In this document: one piece after another, positions 1 through 36,934 of the stretch | Layout of the letters: each line of letters begins with the position of its first letter | How positions within the stretch are numbered: position 1 is the stretch's first letter | Origin: a virus | IMG/VR virus record: IMGVR_UViG_3300044625_001284 | Coordinates: 1 to 36,934 of that record | DNA length: 36,934 bases | Reading direction: 5' to 3' (one strand) | Made by a program: the position numbers and the translations under genes | Notes under the pieces: generated by a model | The model's input: only the letters and a program-made list of their open reading frames with translations | Database searches by the model: none | Told to the model about the DNA's origin: nothing

Positions 1-226
1 CGTGTCGCGACTGGAGCGCGGCGCCAAGTTCCGCGAGCTTCCTCGCGGCCCGAAACGTAAATCGGGCAAACGAAACGCGAAGGAACGTCGTCGGCGGATC
101 CGCGACCTCAAACTGCTCGAGGAAGATTTGCGCCGGGGCATCCCGGAACGCGTTGGGCCGGTAGAGCTCGTCAGCAGCCTTCCGGATTTCTTCGGCAGTC
201 AGCCCGGCAAGCATCGGTCTCTCCAC
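1..226 (-). CDS. Small hypothetical protein, 3'-truncated by window edge (allele A)
   Basis: Reading leftward from a GTG at 226, 75 codons are present before the window ends. The product is almost identical to the complete 105-residue protein at 36473-36790. The differences are GTG instead of ATG as start, several silent changes, and two amino-acid changes near residue 36 (Glu to Asp and Phe to Cys, going from this copy to the right-hand one). No domain is recognised. The pattern of mainly silent substitutions says the protein is under purifying selection. It is divergently transcribed from the early promoter at 277-305. Confidence 0.6.
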   Translation of the reverse strand, partial: MERPMLAGLTAEEIRKAADELYRPNAFRDAPAQIFLEQFEVADPPTTFLRVSFARFTFRAARKLAELGAALQSRH

Positions 227-276: not shown

Positions 277-305
277 TTGACGGCGTGTACGCCGAACCGT
301 ACAAC
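277..305 (+). promoter_or_regulatory. Early rightward promoter with palindromic operator (allele A)
   Basis: TTGACG (277-282), a 17-base spacer and TACAAC (300-305) make a good sigma-70-type promoter pointing into the early operon. A 14-base palindrome, CGGCGT-GT-ACGCCG (281-294), overlaps the -35 box and spacer, where a repressor would block polymerase. The equivalent site in the right-hand copy keeps the promoter but has a different operator sequence. Function is inferred from position and symmetry. Confidence 0.6.
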
Positions 306-440: not shown

Positions 441-1103
441 ATGCGAAATCGCATTGCGGGATTCAGCACGGGATTCACGGGCGAGCCGCTAGACGATCGG
501 CTCATCGACGAACGGATGGCGCAGGAGTTCGCCCGGTGGACTCCAGCACAGCGTCGCGTCCGCAGGATGTTCGCACGGATGCGACGACGGAGGATCCGTC
601 GACTTTTGCGGATGCACTTTGCCACGGCCGCCACGGAGGGCGCCCGGGATGCTGAAACTCCGTCGAACCGTGGGCGAGCGGATTGTGGTGATTCCGCCGG
701 ATTCCGGGCCTATTCGCGTGACGCTTGTGGAAGTCCGCGGCGGCAAGGTGTGGCTGGGCTTCGAGGCGGACTCGGAGACGGAGATTCTCCGCGAGGAGCT
801 CTACGAAGCGATGGTTCGGGACGGGGACCGTCAGCCGGTCGAGTGAGCACGGTGGCGGCTTCGCACGGCGACCGGCACCCCGGCGACGCAGAAGCGGACG
901 CTGCCGTAGCCGCGATGCGATGCGACACATGGTTCCGAACGGGCGACGTCGTGCGTTTCACGGATCCAGACCGTGGATTTTACCTGGAGCCGGCGACGGT
1001 GTTGGGAGCGATGACCGCCGGCCAGCTGCTGGTGCAGACGTTCGCCGGCCGAATGGAGCTGGTGATTTCCGAGTCCCAAGTAATCGTTTGGGAGTGTGCG
1101 TGA
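441..1103 (+). CDS. Hypothetical Arg-rich protein; open frame runs across csrA
   Basis: An ATG at 441 with GGAG about eight bases upstream opens a frame whose first ~70 codons look like real GC-rich coding sequence, with an acidic N-terminal part and an Arg-rich stretch around residues 39-57. The frame stays open through csrA (649-846, another frame) and joins the downstream gene at 843-1103 without a stop. Within the csrA overlap it reads as low-complexity Gly/Arg/Ser and is probably not selected. Either one 220-residue protein is made, or an N-terminal gene has lost its stop and the true C-terminal product starts at 843. No family is recognised. Confidence 0.35.
   Translation: MRNRIAGFSTGFTGEPLDDRLIDERMAQEFARWTPAQRRVRRMFARMRRRRIRRLLRMHFATAATEGARDAETPSNRGRADCGDSAGFRAYSRDACGSPRRQGVAGLRGGLGDGDSPRGALRSDGSGRGPSAGRVSTVAASHGDRHPGDAEADAAVAAMRCDTWFRTGDVVRFTDPDRGFYLEPATVLGAMTAGQLLVQTFAGRMELVISESQVIVWECA
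649..846 (+). CDS. csrA: CsrA-family post-transcriptional regulator
   Basis: The 65-residue product has the CsrA layout: N-terminal MLKLRRTVGERIVV, the central VTLVEVRGGKVWLGF strand region, and a C-terminal LREELYEAM segment holding the conserved Arg used in RNA binding. CsrA dimers bind GGA motifs in mRNA leaders and block or stabilise translation. The start is fixed by GGAGGG at 635-640. Its place near the front of the early operon suggests a role in redirecting host or phage translation soon after infection; this role is inferred. The family assignment is strong from sequence, although the host target is unknown. Confidence 0.92.
   Translation: MLKLRRTVGERIVVIPPDSGPIRVTLVEVRGGKVWLGFEADSETEILREELYEAMVRDGDRQPVE
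843..1103 (+). CDS. Hypothetical early protein
   Basis: A GTG start overlaps the csrA stop by four bases (GTGA), typical of translational coupling. The 86-residue product has a likely disordered N-terminus, then a compact region beginning near WFRTGDVVRF with alternating hydrophobic residues (FYLEPATVLG, LLVQTFAGRMEL), suggesting a small beta-rich domain. The same frame is open upstream to 441, so an in-frame fusion cannot be excluded. No function is assigned. Confidence 0.5.
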   Translation: MSTVAASHGDRHPGDAEADAAVAAMRCDTWFRTGDVVRFTDPDRGFYLEPATVLGAMTAGQLLVQTFAGRMELVISESQVIVWECA

Positions 1104-1327: not shown

Positions 1328-1431
1328 CTGCGGCGATGTTGTTGGGATTCGCGGCTGGCGTTGCAGTCACGGGCGTAACCGTGATCGTCACCGCGTGCTG
1401 GACGGTGTGGCGTTCTAACGGAGATTCGTGA
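1324..1431 (+). CDS. Single-span membrane peptide
   Basis: A 35-codon gene overlaps its neighbours at both ends: ATGA at 1324, and a stop (TGA 1429-1431) interlocked with the GTG/ATG of the recombinase gene. The product is one hydrophobic segment (LLGFAAGVAVTGVTVIV) followed by a short polar tail, as expected for a small inner-membrane peptide. Coupling on both sides is the main evidence that it is real. Confidence 0.55.
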   Translation: MTAAMLLGFAAGVAVTGVTVIVTACWTVWRSNGDS

Positions 1432-2273
1432 TGGGTGCCGAAACGACGATTGCGAAGAGGGAGATGGCCAAGCGGTCTGTGCTGCTGGCGATGGCGGATC
1501 GGTACGGCATGGAGCCTGCCGCATTCGAGGCGACGGTGCGGGCCACCTGCGGCATGTCGGGGGCGACCCGCGAGGAGTTTGCCGCGTTCCTGCTGGTCGC
1601 CAACGAGTACCGGCTAAACCCGGCGACGCGGGAGATCTTCGCGTTTCCAAAGAAGGGCGGCGGCATTCAGCCGATCGTGTCGGTGGACGGATGGCTCAAC
1701 CTCGCGAACAGCCACCCGCAGTTCGACGGCATCGAGGTGACCTTTGAGCACGACGACGCCGGAAAGCTCGTCTCGGCAACGGCCCACGTCCACCGCAAGG
1801 ACCGGTCGCACCCGGTGGTGGTGACGGAGTATCTCGCGGAGTGCGTGCGTTCCACTGACCCGTGGAAGATGGCCCACAGGATGCTCCGCCACAAGGCGGC
1901 GATCCAGGGCATCAGGTACGCGTTTGGCTTCTCCGGGATCATGGAGCCCGACGAGGCCGAGAGCATCGACGCCCGGGCCGCTGTGGCCTACACGCCAGAG
2001 CCCCGCGCGGTGCAGCAGCTGCCGACCCTCGCCGATGACGAGTGGCAGCGGCAGTTGCCGGTGTGGCGAAAGACCGTCGAGAGCAGGAAGAAGTCGGCCG
2101 CCGACATCCTTGCTCTGGCGCAGATCCGCTGGTCCATCACAGAAGATCAGGCCGACACGATCATGCTCCTCGGGGCAAATGTCGCGCCTGACGGCGAGGT
2201 CATCGAGGCCGTGGCGGTCGACCGTGGCGACGCCTGGGAGCAGCCGGTCAGCGAGGAAGGGGGTGCCGCATGA
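1431..2273 (+). CDS. bet: Bet/RecT-family single-strand annealing protein
   Basis: The 280-residue product matches phage recombination protein Bet/RecT. The core motif region includes FLLVANEYRLNPATREIFAF, then IVSVDGWLNLANSHPQFDGI, AECVRSTDPWKMAHRMLRHKA and a conserved AIQGIRYAFGFSGI near residue 170. Such proteins coat single strands left by a 5'-3' exonuclease and anneal them to homologous DNA. The next gene is the expected exonuclease, overlapping by four bases. An in-frame GTG at 1428 is an alternative start. Confidence in the family is high because both sequence and neighbour agree. Confidence 0.93.
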   Translation: MGAETTIAKREMAKRSVLLAMADRYGMEPAAFEATVRATCGMSGATREEFAAFLLVANEYRLNPATREIFAFPKKGGGIQPIVSVDGWLNLANSHPQFDGIEVTFEHDDAGKLVSATAHVHRKDRSHPVVVTEYLAECVRSTDPWKMAHRMLRHKAAIQGIRYAFGFSGIMEPDEAESIDARAAVAYTPEPRAVQQLPTLADDEWQRQLPVWRKTVESRKKSAADILALAQIRWSITEDQADTIMLLGANVAPDGEVIEAVAVDRGDAWEQPVSEEGGAA

Positions 2274-3928
2274 AGACCGTCTCCCATGTCCAGGGCTCGC
2301 CCGAGTGGCTCGCCCACAGGGCCAAACATTTCAACGCCTCCGACGCCCCGGCCATGCTTGGTGTTTCGCCACACAAGACACGCCGGCAGCTGCTTGCGGA
2401 AACGGCTACCGGCATCACGCCCGAGGTTGACGCTGCCACACAGCGGCGGTTCAACATGGGGCACCGGCTGGAGGCCCTGGCGAGGCCGATTGCCGAGCAG
2501 ATCGTCGGCGAGCCGCTCTACCCGGTGACGGGCACGACCGGCCGCTACTCGGCGTCTTTCGACGGGCTCACGCTAGGAGGAGAGACGGCGTTCGAGCACA
2601 AAGCATTGAACGCGGAGTTGAGGGCCGCCCTGACGACCGACTTCGCCGAGATCCCGCTGCACTACCGGGCGCAGGTAGAGCACCAGCTGCTGGTGAGCGG
2701 CGCCGACCGGTGCCTGTTCATGGCGAGCGACTTCGACGCCTCGGGGACGCTCGTCGAGGAGCATCATCGGTGGATCGAATCGGACCCTGTGCTCCGCGAG
2801 CGGATCGTCGCCGGGTGGGCGCAGTTCGCGGCGGACCTCATGTCGTTCGAGCCGGCGGCGCCCGCGGACTCGGCCCCGATCGGAACCGCCCCTGAGACCC
2901 TGCCGGCCCTGCGGATCGAGGTCGAGGGCACGGTCATCGCCAGCAACCTTCAGGCGTTTCGCGAGACCGCCATCGCGGCAATCCGGAACGTCAACCGCGA
3001 GCTCACGACCGACCAGCACTTCGCGGACGCGGAACTGTCGGTGAAGTGGTGCCGGGAGGTCGAGACGAGGATCGAGGCAGCTAAGGCCCACGCCCTTTCG
3101 CAGACCGCGAGCATCGACGAGCTGTTCCGGACGCTCGACGACATCGCGGCCGAATCGCGCCGGGTGCGGCTCGACCTGGAGAAGCTCGTCAAGGGCCGGA
3201 AGGATGAGATCCGGGCCGGGATCGTCCTCGACGCCCAGCGGGCACTGGCCAAGCACCTCGCGACGCTTTCGGCGGAGTGCCAGCCGTTCACGGTGCCGCC
3301 AGTTACCGCGGACTTTGCCGGTGCGATCAAGGGCAAGCGTTCGATCACGGCCATGCACGACGCAGTAGATCACGCCCTTGCTGACGCGAAGATTGCGGCG
3401 GACGCTGCGGCGCGGGTGGTGCGGACGAATGCTGCGTTTTTCAGCGACGCCGCCCACGGGCACGAGACTGTTTTCCCGGACGTCTCCAGGCACATCGGAA
3501 TGGCTCACGACGCGTTTCGTGAGTTCGTGTCGGGGCGGCTTGCTCGGCATGCGGCCGAGGAGGCCGAGCGGGCCAGAAAGGCCGCGGAAGCGGCTGCGGC
3601 AGCGGCGCCCCCTGCCCCGGTGCCGACAACGCCGGCGCAGCCGGCAGAGCCCTACTCCTACTCCAAGGGTCGCGAGGATTTGGAGGCGTTTGAGGACGAA
3701 GGAGCCTCCCTCAGCCTGGGCGACATCAACGCCCGGCTCGGGATCACGATGTCGTCCGCGTTCGTCGCCAACACGCTCCAAGTGCATCCGGCTGGAAAGA
3801 ACCGCCGGGCGCTGCTGTTCACGGAAAGCCAGTTCGCGGACATCTGCCAGCGGCTTTGCGTGCATGTCCACACCGTGAAGGTGCGGAATTGTGTTCGAGA
3901 GGTTGCAAACGTTGGAGGTGACGCATGA
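2270..3928 (+). CDS. YqaJ-family viral recombinase/exonuclease, long form
   Basis: Residues 1-200 form a YqaJ/lambda-exonuclease-like nuclease: VQGSPEWLAHRAKHFNASDAPAMLG, RFNMGHRLEALARP, the SFDGL motif and the E-x-K of FEHKAL, then HYRAQVEHQLLVSG. It would resect duplex ends to feed the annealing protein encoded upstream. The protein is 552 residues, much longer than the bare nuclease. A helical middle region (about 205-430) is followed by an Ala/Pro linker (425-465) and a C-terminal module (470-552, SLGDINARLGITMSSAFVA) of a type I recall appended to many phage recombination and antirepressor proteins. The role of the extra regions is unknown. Confidence 0.88.
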   Translation: MKTVSHVQGSPEWLAHRAKHFNASDAPAMLGVSPHKTRRQLLAETATGITPEVDAATQRRFNMGHRLEALARPIAEQIVGEPLYPVTGTTGRYSASFDGLTLGGETAFEHKALNAELRAALTTDFAEIPLHYRAQVEHQLLVSGADRCLFMASDFDASGTLVEEHHRWIESDPVLRERIVAGWAQFAADLMSFEPAAPADSAPIGTAPETLPALRIEVEGTVIASNLQAFRETAIAAIRNVNRELTTDQHFADAELSVKWCREVETRIEAAKAHALSQTASIDELFRTLDDIAAESRRVRLDLEKLVKGRKDEIRAGIVLDAQRALAKHLATLSAECQPFTVPPVTADFAGAIKGKRSITAMHDAVDHALADAKIAADAAARVVRTNAAFFSDAAHGHETVFPDVSRHIGMAHDAFREFVSGRLARHAAEEAERARKAAEAAAAAAPPAPVPTTPAQPAEPYSYSKGREDLEAFEDEGASLSLGDINARLGITMSSAFVANTLQVHPAGKNRRALLFTESQFADICQRLCVHVHTVKVRNCVREVANVGGDA

Positions 3929-15719: not shown

Positions 15720-17504
<1,785 letters not shown>

Positions 17505-33720: not shown

Positions 33721-34620
33721 TTACGCCGATCGTGCCGGTGTATCGTCCTCAGGCTTGAACACACGCGGCAACGATTGCCATGCCTTGGGCCGCCGCGAAT
33801 CCACCACGCGAGGGTCAAGGTAGGAACGCCGCGTGATGCGGTCTGTCGAATGACCGAGGTACGAGGTCGCATCGAGGCCGGCCGCGGCCAGGTGCGATGC
33901 CGTAGATCTCCGAAGGGCATGAAACTGAACGTCGCGCCCCTCCCCGAGGCCGGCTCTCCTAGTGATGGTCTTCCACCGTTTCCTGAGAGCCGTGTCGCTG
34001 GCGACCCACCAGAAAACCGTCGGTCCGTTGTGTGCAACGACGTGATCCACGAGGTCGCACGCCTCCGGCGACAATTCGTACACACGTTCGACGCGGCCCC
34101 CCTTTCTGACGCCGGCCGGCACGGTCAGCGTCGGCCTGACCCAGCAATGCTTGGGCGTCGTGAGAATCGCGTTGATACGCTCCCCTGTCTCAAGGCCGAC
34201 GGCGATGAGGGCCTGAAAAAACACTGAAGCAGGCACCGGCCCAACCCACCCGCTCGACCATTTGGCCGCCTCCGCGAGTCTGGCCAGCTCGTCCGCTGTG
34301 AATGCGCGCGGAGTAGACTGCGGAACCAGTTCGGGGGCCACCGTCGGCCGGAGCTTTACCAGCCCGCGCCCTTGGGCGAGATTCCAAAGAGCCAACAATC
34401 CCGAACGCTCGCGCGCCACGCTGTTGGGCGACTTCTTTTCCGCCATCGCCGTAAGCCATTGGCTCACGACCAGGTCCTCGAGGTCATCGAGCACTGCGGG
34501 CCGGCCAAGCCACTTTGAAAACTGGGTGATGGCGTGCCTGAGCAGCCGGACGCTTTCAGGCGAGCGGCCGCGAAGCCGCAGGGGGACGTAGACGGTTTCC
34601 AGGAACGTGGTGAGTGTCAT
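33721..34620 (-). CDS. int: Tyrosine-family site-specific integrase
   Basis: The 299-residue product has an N-terminal helical DNA-binding domain (LRHAITQFSKWLG) and a C-terminal catalytic domain with the Arg148 of ETGERINA, HALRR (His234, Arg237), LGHSTDR (His257) and the nucleophile Tyr267 in RRSYLDP. It integrates the genome into host DNA. The start has GGAGG upstream. The attachment site was not found and may lie in 33597-33720 or 34621-34846. Confidence 0.93.
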   Translation of the reverse strand: MTLTTFLETVYVPLRLRGRSPESVRLLRHAITQFSKWLGRPAVLDDLEDLVVSQWLTAMAEKKSPNSVARERSGLLALWNLAQGRGLVKLRPTVAPELVPQSTPRAFTADELARLAEAAKWSSGWVGPVPASVFFQALIAVGLETGERINAILTTPKHCWVRPTLTVPAGVRKGGRVERVYELSPEACDLVDHVVAHNGPTVFWWVASDTALRKRWKTITRRAGLGEGRDVQFHALRRSTASHLAAAGLDATSYLGHSTDRITRRSYLDPRVVDSRRPKAWQSLPRVFKPEDDTPARSA

Positions 34621-34763: not shown

Positions 34764-34797
34764 AGGGTTGCAATCCCCGAAAGGGGATTGCAACCCT
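34764..34797. other. Perfect 15-bp hairpin with GAAA loop, CRISPR-repeat-like
   Basis: AGGGTTGCAATCCCC (34764-34778) and its exact inverse (34783-34797) flank GAAA. The hairpin lies upstream of the repressor on the forward strand, about 50 bases before its start. There is no T-run. The GTTGCAATCCCC core with a small loop and palindromic arms is very like the repeats of type I CRISPR arrays. Alternative roles are a leader attenuator, operator or attachment site. Confidence 0.6.
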
Positions 34798-34846: not shown

Positions 34847-35122
34847 ATGGCGACGGCGAGCGAAAGACACCCTGGCGGGAGGCCGCGGACTCGGGAGCCG
34901 TCTGCGATTTTCCTACGTGTGCAGGCGATGGCAAAGCGTCGCGGGATTCCCCTGGACGAACTTGCCGAGCGAGCAGGAATTCGTCGGGCAACGATCTACG
35001 AACTGAGCGACCCTCGGGTGTCCACTGCCCGCGCGATCGCTGACGCCCTTGGCATCACGCTCGACCGCCTGACCCGCGAAGAGCCGGCATCGAAGCGAAC
35101 AGCCCGTCGCAGGTCGGCGTGA
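34847..35122 (+). CDS. XRE/Cro-CI-type helix-turn-helix repressor
   Basis: The 91-residue product has a clear HTH of the Cro/CI class at about residues 33-75: GIPLDELAERAGIRRATIYELSDPRVSTARAIADALGITLDRL. It lacks a C-terminal dimerisation or cleavage domain, so it is a short repressor or Cro-like protein. A GGAGG site precedes the ATG. It is divergent from the integrase and its leader contains the perfect hairpin. It is the best candidate for lysogeny control. Confidence 0.8.
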   Translation: MATASERHPGGRPRTREPSAIFLRVQAMAKRRGIPLDELAERAGIRRATIYELSDPRVSTARAIADALGITLDRLTREEPASKRTARRRSA

Positions 35123-35150
35123 CCGCTGAGTGGCGACGCAGTCAAGGCCG

Positions 35151-35639
35151 TCAGCCAGTCGGCGCCCCCCCTAGCAACTTGAACGCCATGCTGGCAATCA
35201 CTGCAACGCCACCGCAGGCCATGCACGCCCGCAGCCACCACGAAAGCCTTGCAGTTTCGATTTGCTCTTCGTTTGTTGCCTTGCAGATATCGCCCAGCAC
35301 AGTCGCCGCCGATCCGTCGTCGTCGACTTGGACCAGGAAGTGCCAAAGACTATCGCGATCGGTTCCGCTTGGGATTCCGACGCCGCCGGGAGCCCATGCG
35401 AAGTACGCGCAGAGAAACGCCGCATTGAGTGAAACGAGCAGCACCGCCAAAGCCGCTGCCCTTGCGAGTGTTGCCGCTGCGGACACGTCTACTTCCTTGA
35501 ACATCAGACCGACGGCCGCAATTGCGGCGCCTAGAACGATTGCTACCCGGTCAGCCACGCGACGCCGCGAGGCAACTTGTCCCTCATAGTTTCGCCACGC
35601 GAGATCGAGCACGCGTTTCTTATTTTCCGAGGTATCCAT
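35151..35639 (-). CDS. Multi-span membrane protein (SLATT-like pattern)
   Basis: The start at 35639 follows GGAG; an in-frame upstream extension is possible but lacks support. The 162-residue product has YEGQVASRRRVADRVAIVLG, then membrane spans near VAIVLGAAIAAVGLMF, LARAAALAVLLVSLNAAFLC and the C-terminal ACMACGGVAVIASMAF. This resembles small multi-span effectors of the SLATT type by pattern only. It is convergent with the repressor and could act in exclusion of other phages. Confidence 0.55.
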   Translation of the reverse strand: MDTSENKKRVLDLAWRNYEGQVASRRRVADRVAIVLGAAIAAVGLMFKEVDVSAAATLARAAALAVLLVSLNAAFLCAYFAWAPGGVGIPSGTDRDSLWHFLVQVDDDGSAATVLGDICKATNEEQIETARLSWWLRACMACGGVAVIASMAFKLLGGAPTG

Positions 35640-35859: not shown

Positions 35860-36084
35860 TCATCGGCCTTCGTCGCAAGCCTCGCGAATCGCCTGTCGTT
35901 CCGCGTCTGTGAGCGCTGGCCGATTGACCACCAGACCAAGCGAAAACAACGCGGTAACGATGTTCTCCGGAGCGCTGACGGACGCATGGTGATCGCGGCA
36001 CCACTCAAAGGCCGCGTGGGCCATGTTGAACCGCTCGGAAAACAGTGGGGTGTCACCGTGAGAACAACGCGATAAAACGGACAT
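35860..36084 (-). CDS. Hypothetical small protein
   Basis: The start at 36084 follows AGGAGG by eight bases. The 74-residue product has no transmembrane span; it contains FNMAHAAFEWCRDHHASVSAPENIVTALFSLG and ends in an acidic helix (LTDAERQAIREACDEG). No family is recognised. A TAGGAT box lies about 50 bases before the start. Confidence 0.5.
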   Translation of the reverse strand: MSVLSRCSHGDTPLFSERFNMAHAAFEWCRDHHASVSAPENIVTALFSLGLVVNRPALTDAERQAIREACDEGR

Positions 36085-36131
36085 CGCCTTGACCTCCTGT
36101 TTGATTGCGAATCCTCGCGGCGATGCCGCTT

Positions 36132-36137
36132 ATCCTA
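36132..36137 (-). promoter_or_regulatory. Putative -10 box TAGGAT before the gene at 36084
   Basis: TAGGAT on the reverse strand occurs about 48 bases upstream of the start codon at 36084, in the gap after the preceding gene. No good -35 is seen. It repeats the hexamer found upstream of the exported protein. Confidence 0.35.
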
Positions 36138-36146
36138 CGTGTTCGC

Positions 36147-36446
36147 TTACTCTTTCGCCTTTAGTGTGTCGCACAAGTCCTGCACCGCTTTGAGCAGCAC
36201 TTGCGCCGACTTAAGTTTCGGGCAACGGACGAAGACGCCGAAGTTCTCGCTGTTGCCCTCTGGGCACATGGCCCCGATGTCGCATGGCTGGGTTAGGGCT
36301 CGCATCAGGATGCCGGTCGTTTTGTCCTCGTCCTCAATGCACTTGATGCCAACCAGCCCGTCTCCAAGTGGAACCGTAACAATGAACAGCGAACCATTGG
36401 ATGCGGGAGACGGCTCGGCACCGTCTTGCGTGTTGTCATCGTTCAT
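36147..36446 (-). CDS. Hypothetical protein
   Basis: The start at 36446 is chosen because AGGAG lies about eight bases before it; a more upstream Met has none. The 99-residue product has an acidic N-terminus, a strand-rich core (SLFIVTVPLGDGLVGIKCIED, NFGVFVRCPKLKSAQVLLKAV) with Cys at three positions, and a helical end. It probably folds as a small alpha/beta domain. Function is unknown. Confidence 0.55.
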   Translation of the reverse strand: MNDDNTQDGAEPSPASNGSLFIVTVPLGDGLVGIKCIEDEDKTTGILMRALTQPCDIGAMCPEGNSENFGVFVRCPKLKSAQVLLKAVQDLCDTLKAKE

Positions 36447-36472
36447 GATTCGCCGCTCCTGATCCTTGGCGT

Positions 36473-36790
36473 TCATCGATCTGCCATCTGAATCGAGTGC
36501 CAAGCCATCTGCTCCGGGTCGATCCTACCCAAGTAGACAACGAAGACCAGATTTGAATTCTCGCCGTGTCGCGACTGGAGCGCGGCGCCAAGTTCCGCGA
36601 GCTTCCTCGCGGCCCGAAACGTAAATCGGGCAAACGAAACGCGAAGGAACGTCGTCGGCGGATCCGCGACCTCACACTGGTCGAGGAAGATTTGCGCCGG
36701 GGCATCCCGGAACGCGTTTGGCCGGTAGAGCTCGTCAGCAGCCTTCCGGATTTCTTCGGCAGTCAGCCCGGCCAGCATCGGTCTCTCCAT
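36473..36790 (-). CDS. Hypothetical protein (complete allele B)
   Basis: The 105-residue product starts at ATG 36790; the diverged partial copy at 1-226 starts with GTG. It is amphipathic: LTAEEIRKAADELYRP, FLDQCEVADPPTTFLRVSFARF, AARKLAELGAALQ and a final NLVFVVYLGRIDPEQM. It has no HTH, so it is not a classic repressor, though it occupies the position next to the early promoter. Two alleles with mainly silent differences indicate real function. Confidence 0.65.
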   Translation of the reverse strand: MERPMLAGLTAEEIRKAADELYRPNAFRDAPAQIFLDQCEVADPPTTFLRVSFARFTFRAARKLAELGAALQSRHGENSNLVFVVYLGRIDPEQMAWHSIQMADR

Positions 36791-36934
36791 GCCGTTTCGT
36801 GCGTGATTCTAGCAGTTTTCCGTTTTCGGAAAACTTGGCTTGACAGCGTTTTCCGAGTCCCATAAAACCCCTCACCGTGACGCTCGCAGTGAGCGTTGCC
36901 GCGACGCACAAGCGATCGCGTAAACGGATTCTCC
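36565..36934. repeat. Right copy of diverged terminal direct repeat
   Basis: This is the second copy of the sequence at 1-371, with the complete reverse-strand gene extending out to its left. The promoter/operator portion (36815-36876) is where the copies differ most. See the left copy for the comparison. Confidence 0.9.
36815..36868 (+). promoter_or_regulatory. Early rightward promoter with GTTTTCCG operator repeats (allele B)
   Basis: TTGACA (36840-36845), a 17-base spacer and TAAAAC (36863-36868) form the promoter equivalent to 277-305. GTTTTCCG and its inverse CGGAAAAC (36815-36822 and 36827-36834) make a perfect inverted pair upstream of the -35, and a third GTTTTCCG (36848-36855) lies in the spacer. 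On the reverse strand a TAGAAT (36806-36811) serves the divergent gene. The operators differ from those of the left copy. Confidence 0.6.

Follow-up and report, generated by a model that had tools for sequence, protein, structure and literature searches.

Assemblers leave repeats of k-mer length at the ends of circular genomes, as described for CheckV (PMC8116208); the same work names strain heterogeneity and chimeras as assembly problems and states that chimeras of closely related viruses are not yet detected. Homologous repressor–operator systems diverge into heteroimmune types, for example in lambda and 434 and in the cluster A mycobacteriophages (PMC6550527). Phage-borne clusters of attC sites without an integrase (CALIN) are also known (Qi et al., PMC9892861). 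The window analyzed here is the whole of an IMG/VR record, 36,934 bases long, and its two ends carry two versions of one region:

1–371: first copy of the overlap (allele a), carrying the control region of a putative strain A (91% identity to 36565–36934)
36565–36934: second copy of the overlap (allele b), carrying the control region of a putative strain B (same alignment)

The two versions align end to end, as the first-pass annotation had reported, with 91% identity, an E value of about 1e-148 to 1e-150 and 33 differences, with a single 1-base indel. A search of the whole window revealed no other long direct repeats, leaving the terminal pair as the sole one. The 371-base repeat lies at the very ends, at 91% identity; an exact end repeat is absent from the window, which places it outside the CheckV rule for direct terminal repeats (the two contig extremes must be identical over 20 bases or more).

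The differences are distributed very unevenly, with 5 in 226 positions of a leftward gene, 3 in 32 of the spacer, 25 in 55 of the divergent early promoter/operator part and none in the 58 of the leader. The clustering of 25 of the 33 differences in 259–313 was overlooked in the first-pass annotation; it spans two promoter-like sequences and palindromes, and the flanks of the diverged block are 97% and 100% identical. The first 110 bases of the overlap are the same in both alleles. An attempt to derive the assembler k-mer length from the end overlaps was given up, because identical stretches of 110 and 58 bases are incompatible with one k. The leftward gene does start with GTG in allele a (226) and with ATG in allele b (36790), as had been noted. 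The coding differences, previously described as mostly silent, comprise two silent changes (codons 6 and 24), two missense changes (E37D and F39C) and the start codon, which are too few for any test; the argument that errors would not favour silent sites fails on these counts. Sequencing or assembly errors in one copy are nevertheless a next to negligible explanation. Coverage is often low at contig ends, but the 25 clustered differences preserve promoter hexamers and create new perfect palindromes, and each copy has bases that are conserved in relatives. When six relatives were compared at the eight differences outside the block, they agreed with allele a at three and with allele b at four. 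Because each allele keeps conserved bases that were lost from the other, sequencing error is unlikely, and this explanation was rejected.

The overlap region holds the divergent early control of a temperate phage, with the following features:

36473–36790, reverse strand: leftward gene (105 amino acids), first gene of the lysogeny operon, with an ATG start in allele b and no known family
2–226, reverse strand: allele a copy of the leftward gene, with a GTG start, truncated by the contig start after 75 codons
259–313: diverged operator/promoter block of allele a, which holds the 25 clustered differences
36823–36876: diverged operator/promoter block of allele b
251–272: predicted leftward operator of allele a, GTTTTCCG-CACACC-CGTAAAAC
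36814–36835: predicted leftward operator of allele b, the perfect palindrome AGTTTTCCG-TTTT-CGGAAAACT
286–303: predicted rightward operator of allele a, TGTACG-CCGAAC-CGTACA, between −35 and −10, a perfect inverted repeat also present in L003/L136, G003 and G004
36848–36868: predicted rightward operator of allele b, GTTTTCCGAGTCCCATAAAAC, which resembles those of L148/L149 and G007
277–305, forward strand: rightward promoter-like sequence of allele a, TTGACG-17-TACAAC, recognized, like its counterpart in allele b, from sequence only
36840–36868, forward strand: rightward promoter-like sequence of allele b, TTGACA-17-TAAAAC
314–371 (= 36877–36934), forward strand: leader, the same in both alleles (0 of 58 positions differ), with the inverted repeat ACGCTC-GCAGT-GAGCGT

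The predicted leftward −10 (TAAAAT or TAGAAT) and the rightward promoter-like sequence are kept in both alleles, and the palindromes between or across them differ. In both, palindromic putative operators overlie promoter-like sequences near an HTH_3 gene, an arrangement that points to an immunity system. The leftward gene product has no Pfam or PHROG match. A single-sequence search with this protein returned nothing, and matches came once an alignment was used. An exact 30-base pattern from the common leader found no other contig.

Relatives of the phage were found by searching with its exonuclease and capsid proteins. A megablast search against the phage collection revealed no near relative of the window, and the best-listed terminase match in that collection was about 27% identical. 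The control region is single-copy in eight related contigs. In the six relatives that have the leftward gene, the homologue of 36470–36564 runs directly into the homologue of base 1 onward, and the 37,870-bp contig of one relative (G006) closes into a circle through an exact overlap of 123 bp at its ends. Because the relatives are collinear across the join with a single copy, we take the unit to be about 36,564 bp, permuted and cut at the control region, in agreement with the size of about 36.56 kb proposed before. A single genome larger than the contig, with the control region present twice, has the occurrence of both copies on one contig as its sole support. With one copy in the eight relatives, including the closed circle, and a gene order that wraps exactly, such a genome is very improbable, and it was rejected as contradicted by the single-copy relatives. 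A near-exact end overlap marks a phage genome as complete where a test for exact repeats would label it linear.

A related contig, G007 (77,375 bases; L128–L131), has imperfect repeats of 99% and 89% (1–129 versus 36667–36795 and 35145–35548 versus 76975–77375). It looks like two related phages joined via a common segment, each nearly closed, and is a second instance of imperfect closure in the group. Many related contigs also stop around the minor tail gene (15720–17504; 15.7–18 kb in window-equivalent positions), a second break point.

The rest of the genome is that of a temperate phage. The rightward genes encode a CsrA-like protein, Bet/RecT, a RecE-like exonuclease, a replication initiator, terminase, portal, protease-capsid and tail proteins, and the lysogeny side holds the 105-residue leftward gene, a repressor-type HTH gene and a tyrosine integrase. 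Individual genes lie at these positions:

649–846, forward strand: CsrA-family protein of the early rightward operon (Pfam CsrA, E 2e-13)
1428–3928, forward strand: Bet/RecT annealing protein and RecE-like exonuclease, early rightward, across the join
33721–34620, reverse strand: tyrosine integrase, XerD-like (Pfam Phage_integrase)
34847–35122, forward strand: Xre-type HTH repressor candidate (91 amino acids; Pfam HTH_3, E 6e-7) with recognition helix GIRRATIYELSDPR

A Planctomycetota metagenome-assembled genome encodes a 53% match to the capsid protein, and the capsid profile has matches in 57 of 392 Planctomycetota genomes, on the strength of which the host group is probably Planctomycetota. 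The repressor profile gave weak matches only in Planctomycetota genomes, probably to generic HTH proteins. Between integrase and repressor gene, the window has a 34-base near-perfect palindrome (34764–34797), possibly a terminator or recombinase site; no Rfam family was found in the window. An apparent 3′ part of tRNA-Arg lies between integrase and repressor in L136, L142, L148, L149 and L008 and is likely the attachment site of a second integrase group. A search of the window for such an attachment site showed no tRNA-Arg 3′ end upstream of the repressor gene.

In the few relatives that carry both, the type of operator agrees with the recognition helix of the repressor. L003/L136, G003 and G004 share the helix GIRRATIYELSDPR and the rightward operator TGTACG-N6-CGTACA, and a pattern search of IMG/VR with this operator returned exactly these four contigs (L003, L136, G003 and G004). 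The helix GVGRATLYQLNDPK occurs in G007 and L148/L149, whose rightward sites end in CCATAAAAC, and with the b-type pattern the search retrieved L148 and L149 and no other contigs. A third helix is found with a third operator in G006. Helix and operator match completely in all relatives that carry both parts, which are few and related phages, and the Mantel correlation between helix and operator distances is 0.95 (p 0.017) for six related phages only. The leftward gene places the window with G005/G006 (80%) and not with G003/G004 (70%), and therefore the operator seems to track the repressor rather than the local background. Against the a-class operator, allele a has 0 mismatches in 12 positions and allele b has 5 in 12 at best; allele b is more like the operators found with another helix. 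L003, which is identical to L136 over 6,038 bases, is the relative most similar at the operator; it has an a-type operator but a different leftward gene. The operator region of allele a is 88% identical to that of L003 and only 65% to allele b. With conserved bases in both alleles, this supports the earlier claim of a join between two different but related phages or strains.

We consider it probable that the window goes once round the genome (about 36,564 bp) of a temperate phage, circular or concatemeric, and that two strains of a mixed population contributed to the assembly. The imperfect closure of G007 between two phages is in line with this reading. The contig would begin in the divergent early-control region of strain A (allele a), circle the genome and end in that of a sister strain B (allele b). 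Closed through allele a, strain A would be a self-consistent circle, in which the Xre repressor may occupy both palindromes that lie between the early promoters of the two directions and so keep the lytic genes silent. Strain B, with near-identical flanks and the other operator block, would respond to a different repressor, i.e., it would be heteroimmune. The passage from A to B may have been made by the assembler in sequence common to both strains, between the repressor gene and base 36674. Repressor binding, heteroimmunity and the assembler-made join are what we infer from these data. The following speaks against a strain mixture: the identical end stretches of 110 and 58 bases misfit a single assembler k-mer length, and the helix–operator rule comes from few, related phages, with a TTTCCG half-site common to the a-class leftward operators and allele b. 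Nor was a complete contig of strain B found, in searches that may have passed over the records closest to the window.

The same layout of the ends is predicted if two phages, A and B, lie head to tail in a tandem double lysogen or a mixed concatemer, the contig spanning from the control region of A to that of B. The phage encodes an integrase, and many Planctomycetota genomes have relatives of the capsid gene, in some cases twice on a single contig. In that case, however, the repressor gene on the contig would belong to phage B, and a b-class helix would be expected beside allele b; the sole repressor gene, 1.7 kb from the b operator, has an a-class helix. Moreover, the contig is without host sequence, and among the capsid matches listed there is no pair in the same direction about one phage length apart on one contig. 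This explanation is thus unlikely, and of the circular, concatemeric or tandemly integrated forms first suggested, the tandem form is disfavoured.

The more interesting rival is an operator-swapped strain with an a-class repressor. Here B would keep the repressor gene of the contig and would have gained allele b by recombination, so that its early promoters escape the repressor or answer another one. On the contig, the a-class repressor and allele b are joined without a break, and the sharp 55-base block between flanks of 97% and 100% identity resembles a recombination tract. However, the 1.5 kb from repressor to operator has long stretches that two strains could share, and the linkage could be assembly-made; in addition, helix and operator match in all relatives that have both. 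We regard such a strain as quite unlikely. Under the preferred strain mixture the assembly join is ordinary in itself, but it reveals that the predicted immunity switch has been exchanged in nature. Differences in an end overlap are a free readout of strain variation, and because here they fall on a predicted repressor–operator switch, they offer a testable pair in which immunity specificity would shift with the remaining genome constant.

A second kind of variation was found next to this switch. Between the repressor and leftward genes, the relatives carry interchangeable leftward ORFs, including C5 and N4/N6 DNA methyltransferases, an HNH nuclease and small unknowns. The ORFs are separated by imperfect palindromes of 41–83 bases with the form AAC...GATC-stem-loop-stem-GCATC...GGTT. 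A model of these sites has two matches in the window and many in relatives (L004, L005/G003, L006/G004, L008, L009, L011, L140, L143 and L145). The two sites in the window are:

36391–36473, reverse strand: attC-like site that adjoins the leftward gene's stop, with the start region of ORF 36147–36446 in the loop (70 bits, but a member of the model-building alignment)
36062–36143, reverse strand: another attC-like site, which includes the start of ORF 35860–36084 (46.5 bits, E 4.5e-13, outside the model-building set)

In 22 distinct sites, 95.5% of cells are paired and six pairs have changed on both sides, compared with 26–46% pairing in slid controls. The sites have the AAC/GTT ends and the extrahelical base of attC hairpins. 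In many of them, the loop holds a start codon, with the result that unrelated proteins share the N-terminal motif xASxGS/Y. In place of the GTTRRRY crossover core the phage sites mostly have GGTTMT, and sites found with the same model in Planctomycetota mostly have GTTRGGC or similar. Matches to the model occur in 28 of 199 Planctomycetota genomes, some of them clustered, and in four of the five tested Planctomycetota genomes with sites, an integron integrase match passes the curated cut-off. Neither the window nor the relatives have a match to TIGR02249 above the cut-off. Judged by sequence and predicted fold, the phages carry attC-like sites but no integron integrase of their own, and the array connects the integrons of Planctomycetota with the cargo of temperate phages. 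In this group, many contigs stop just after the repressor gene, at the start of the array, although the set was chosen for the repressor and the clustering is suggestive only; the array may partly explain the frequent contig breaks in the lysogeny region of the group.

In L137–L147 and L150–L152, a conserved block of about 110–130 bases follows the repressor stop codon, ending in ...ATAATGACAAGTT or ...CACTGGTT. Beyond it the sequence differs from phage to phage, and L139 and L146 end exactly at the block, which could be an attI-like or attP site. The block is absent from the window.

Taken as a whole, the immunity region may be a natural switching locus, a tentative proposal that we hold as possible but doubtful: near-identical strains would swap a 55-base operator block, with repressor specificity changed or escaped, and the adjacent lysogeny operon would swap cargo via attC-type cassettes that bring the genes' own start codons.

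Compared with the systems described above, the window resembles circular phage contigs with direct terminal repeats (PMC8116208) in that one turn of the genome is present and its start is repeated at the window's end; unlike in those repeats, the repeat is inexact and its differences lie on a regulatory switch. As with lambda and 434 and the cluster A mycobacteriophages (PMC6550527), related phages have diverged repressors and operators, and predicted specificity is paired with operator sequence. Unlike in those phages, two operator types stand in near-identical flanks within one record, with binding that is predicted. Like CALIN (PMC9892861), the lysogeny operon has folded attC-like sites between small interchangeable ORFs, with DNA methyltransferases among the cargo. 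In contrast to CALIN, the sites mostly end in GGTTMT and not in GTTRRRY, many hold the start codon of the leftward ORF in the loop, and the arrays lie in the lysogeny operon of Planctomycetota-type phages.
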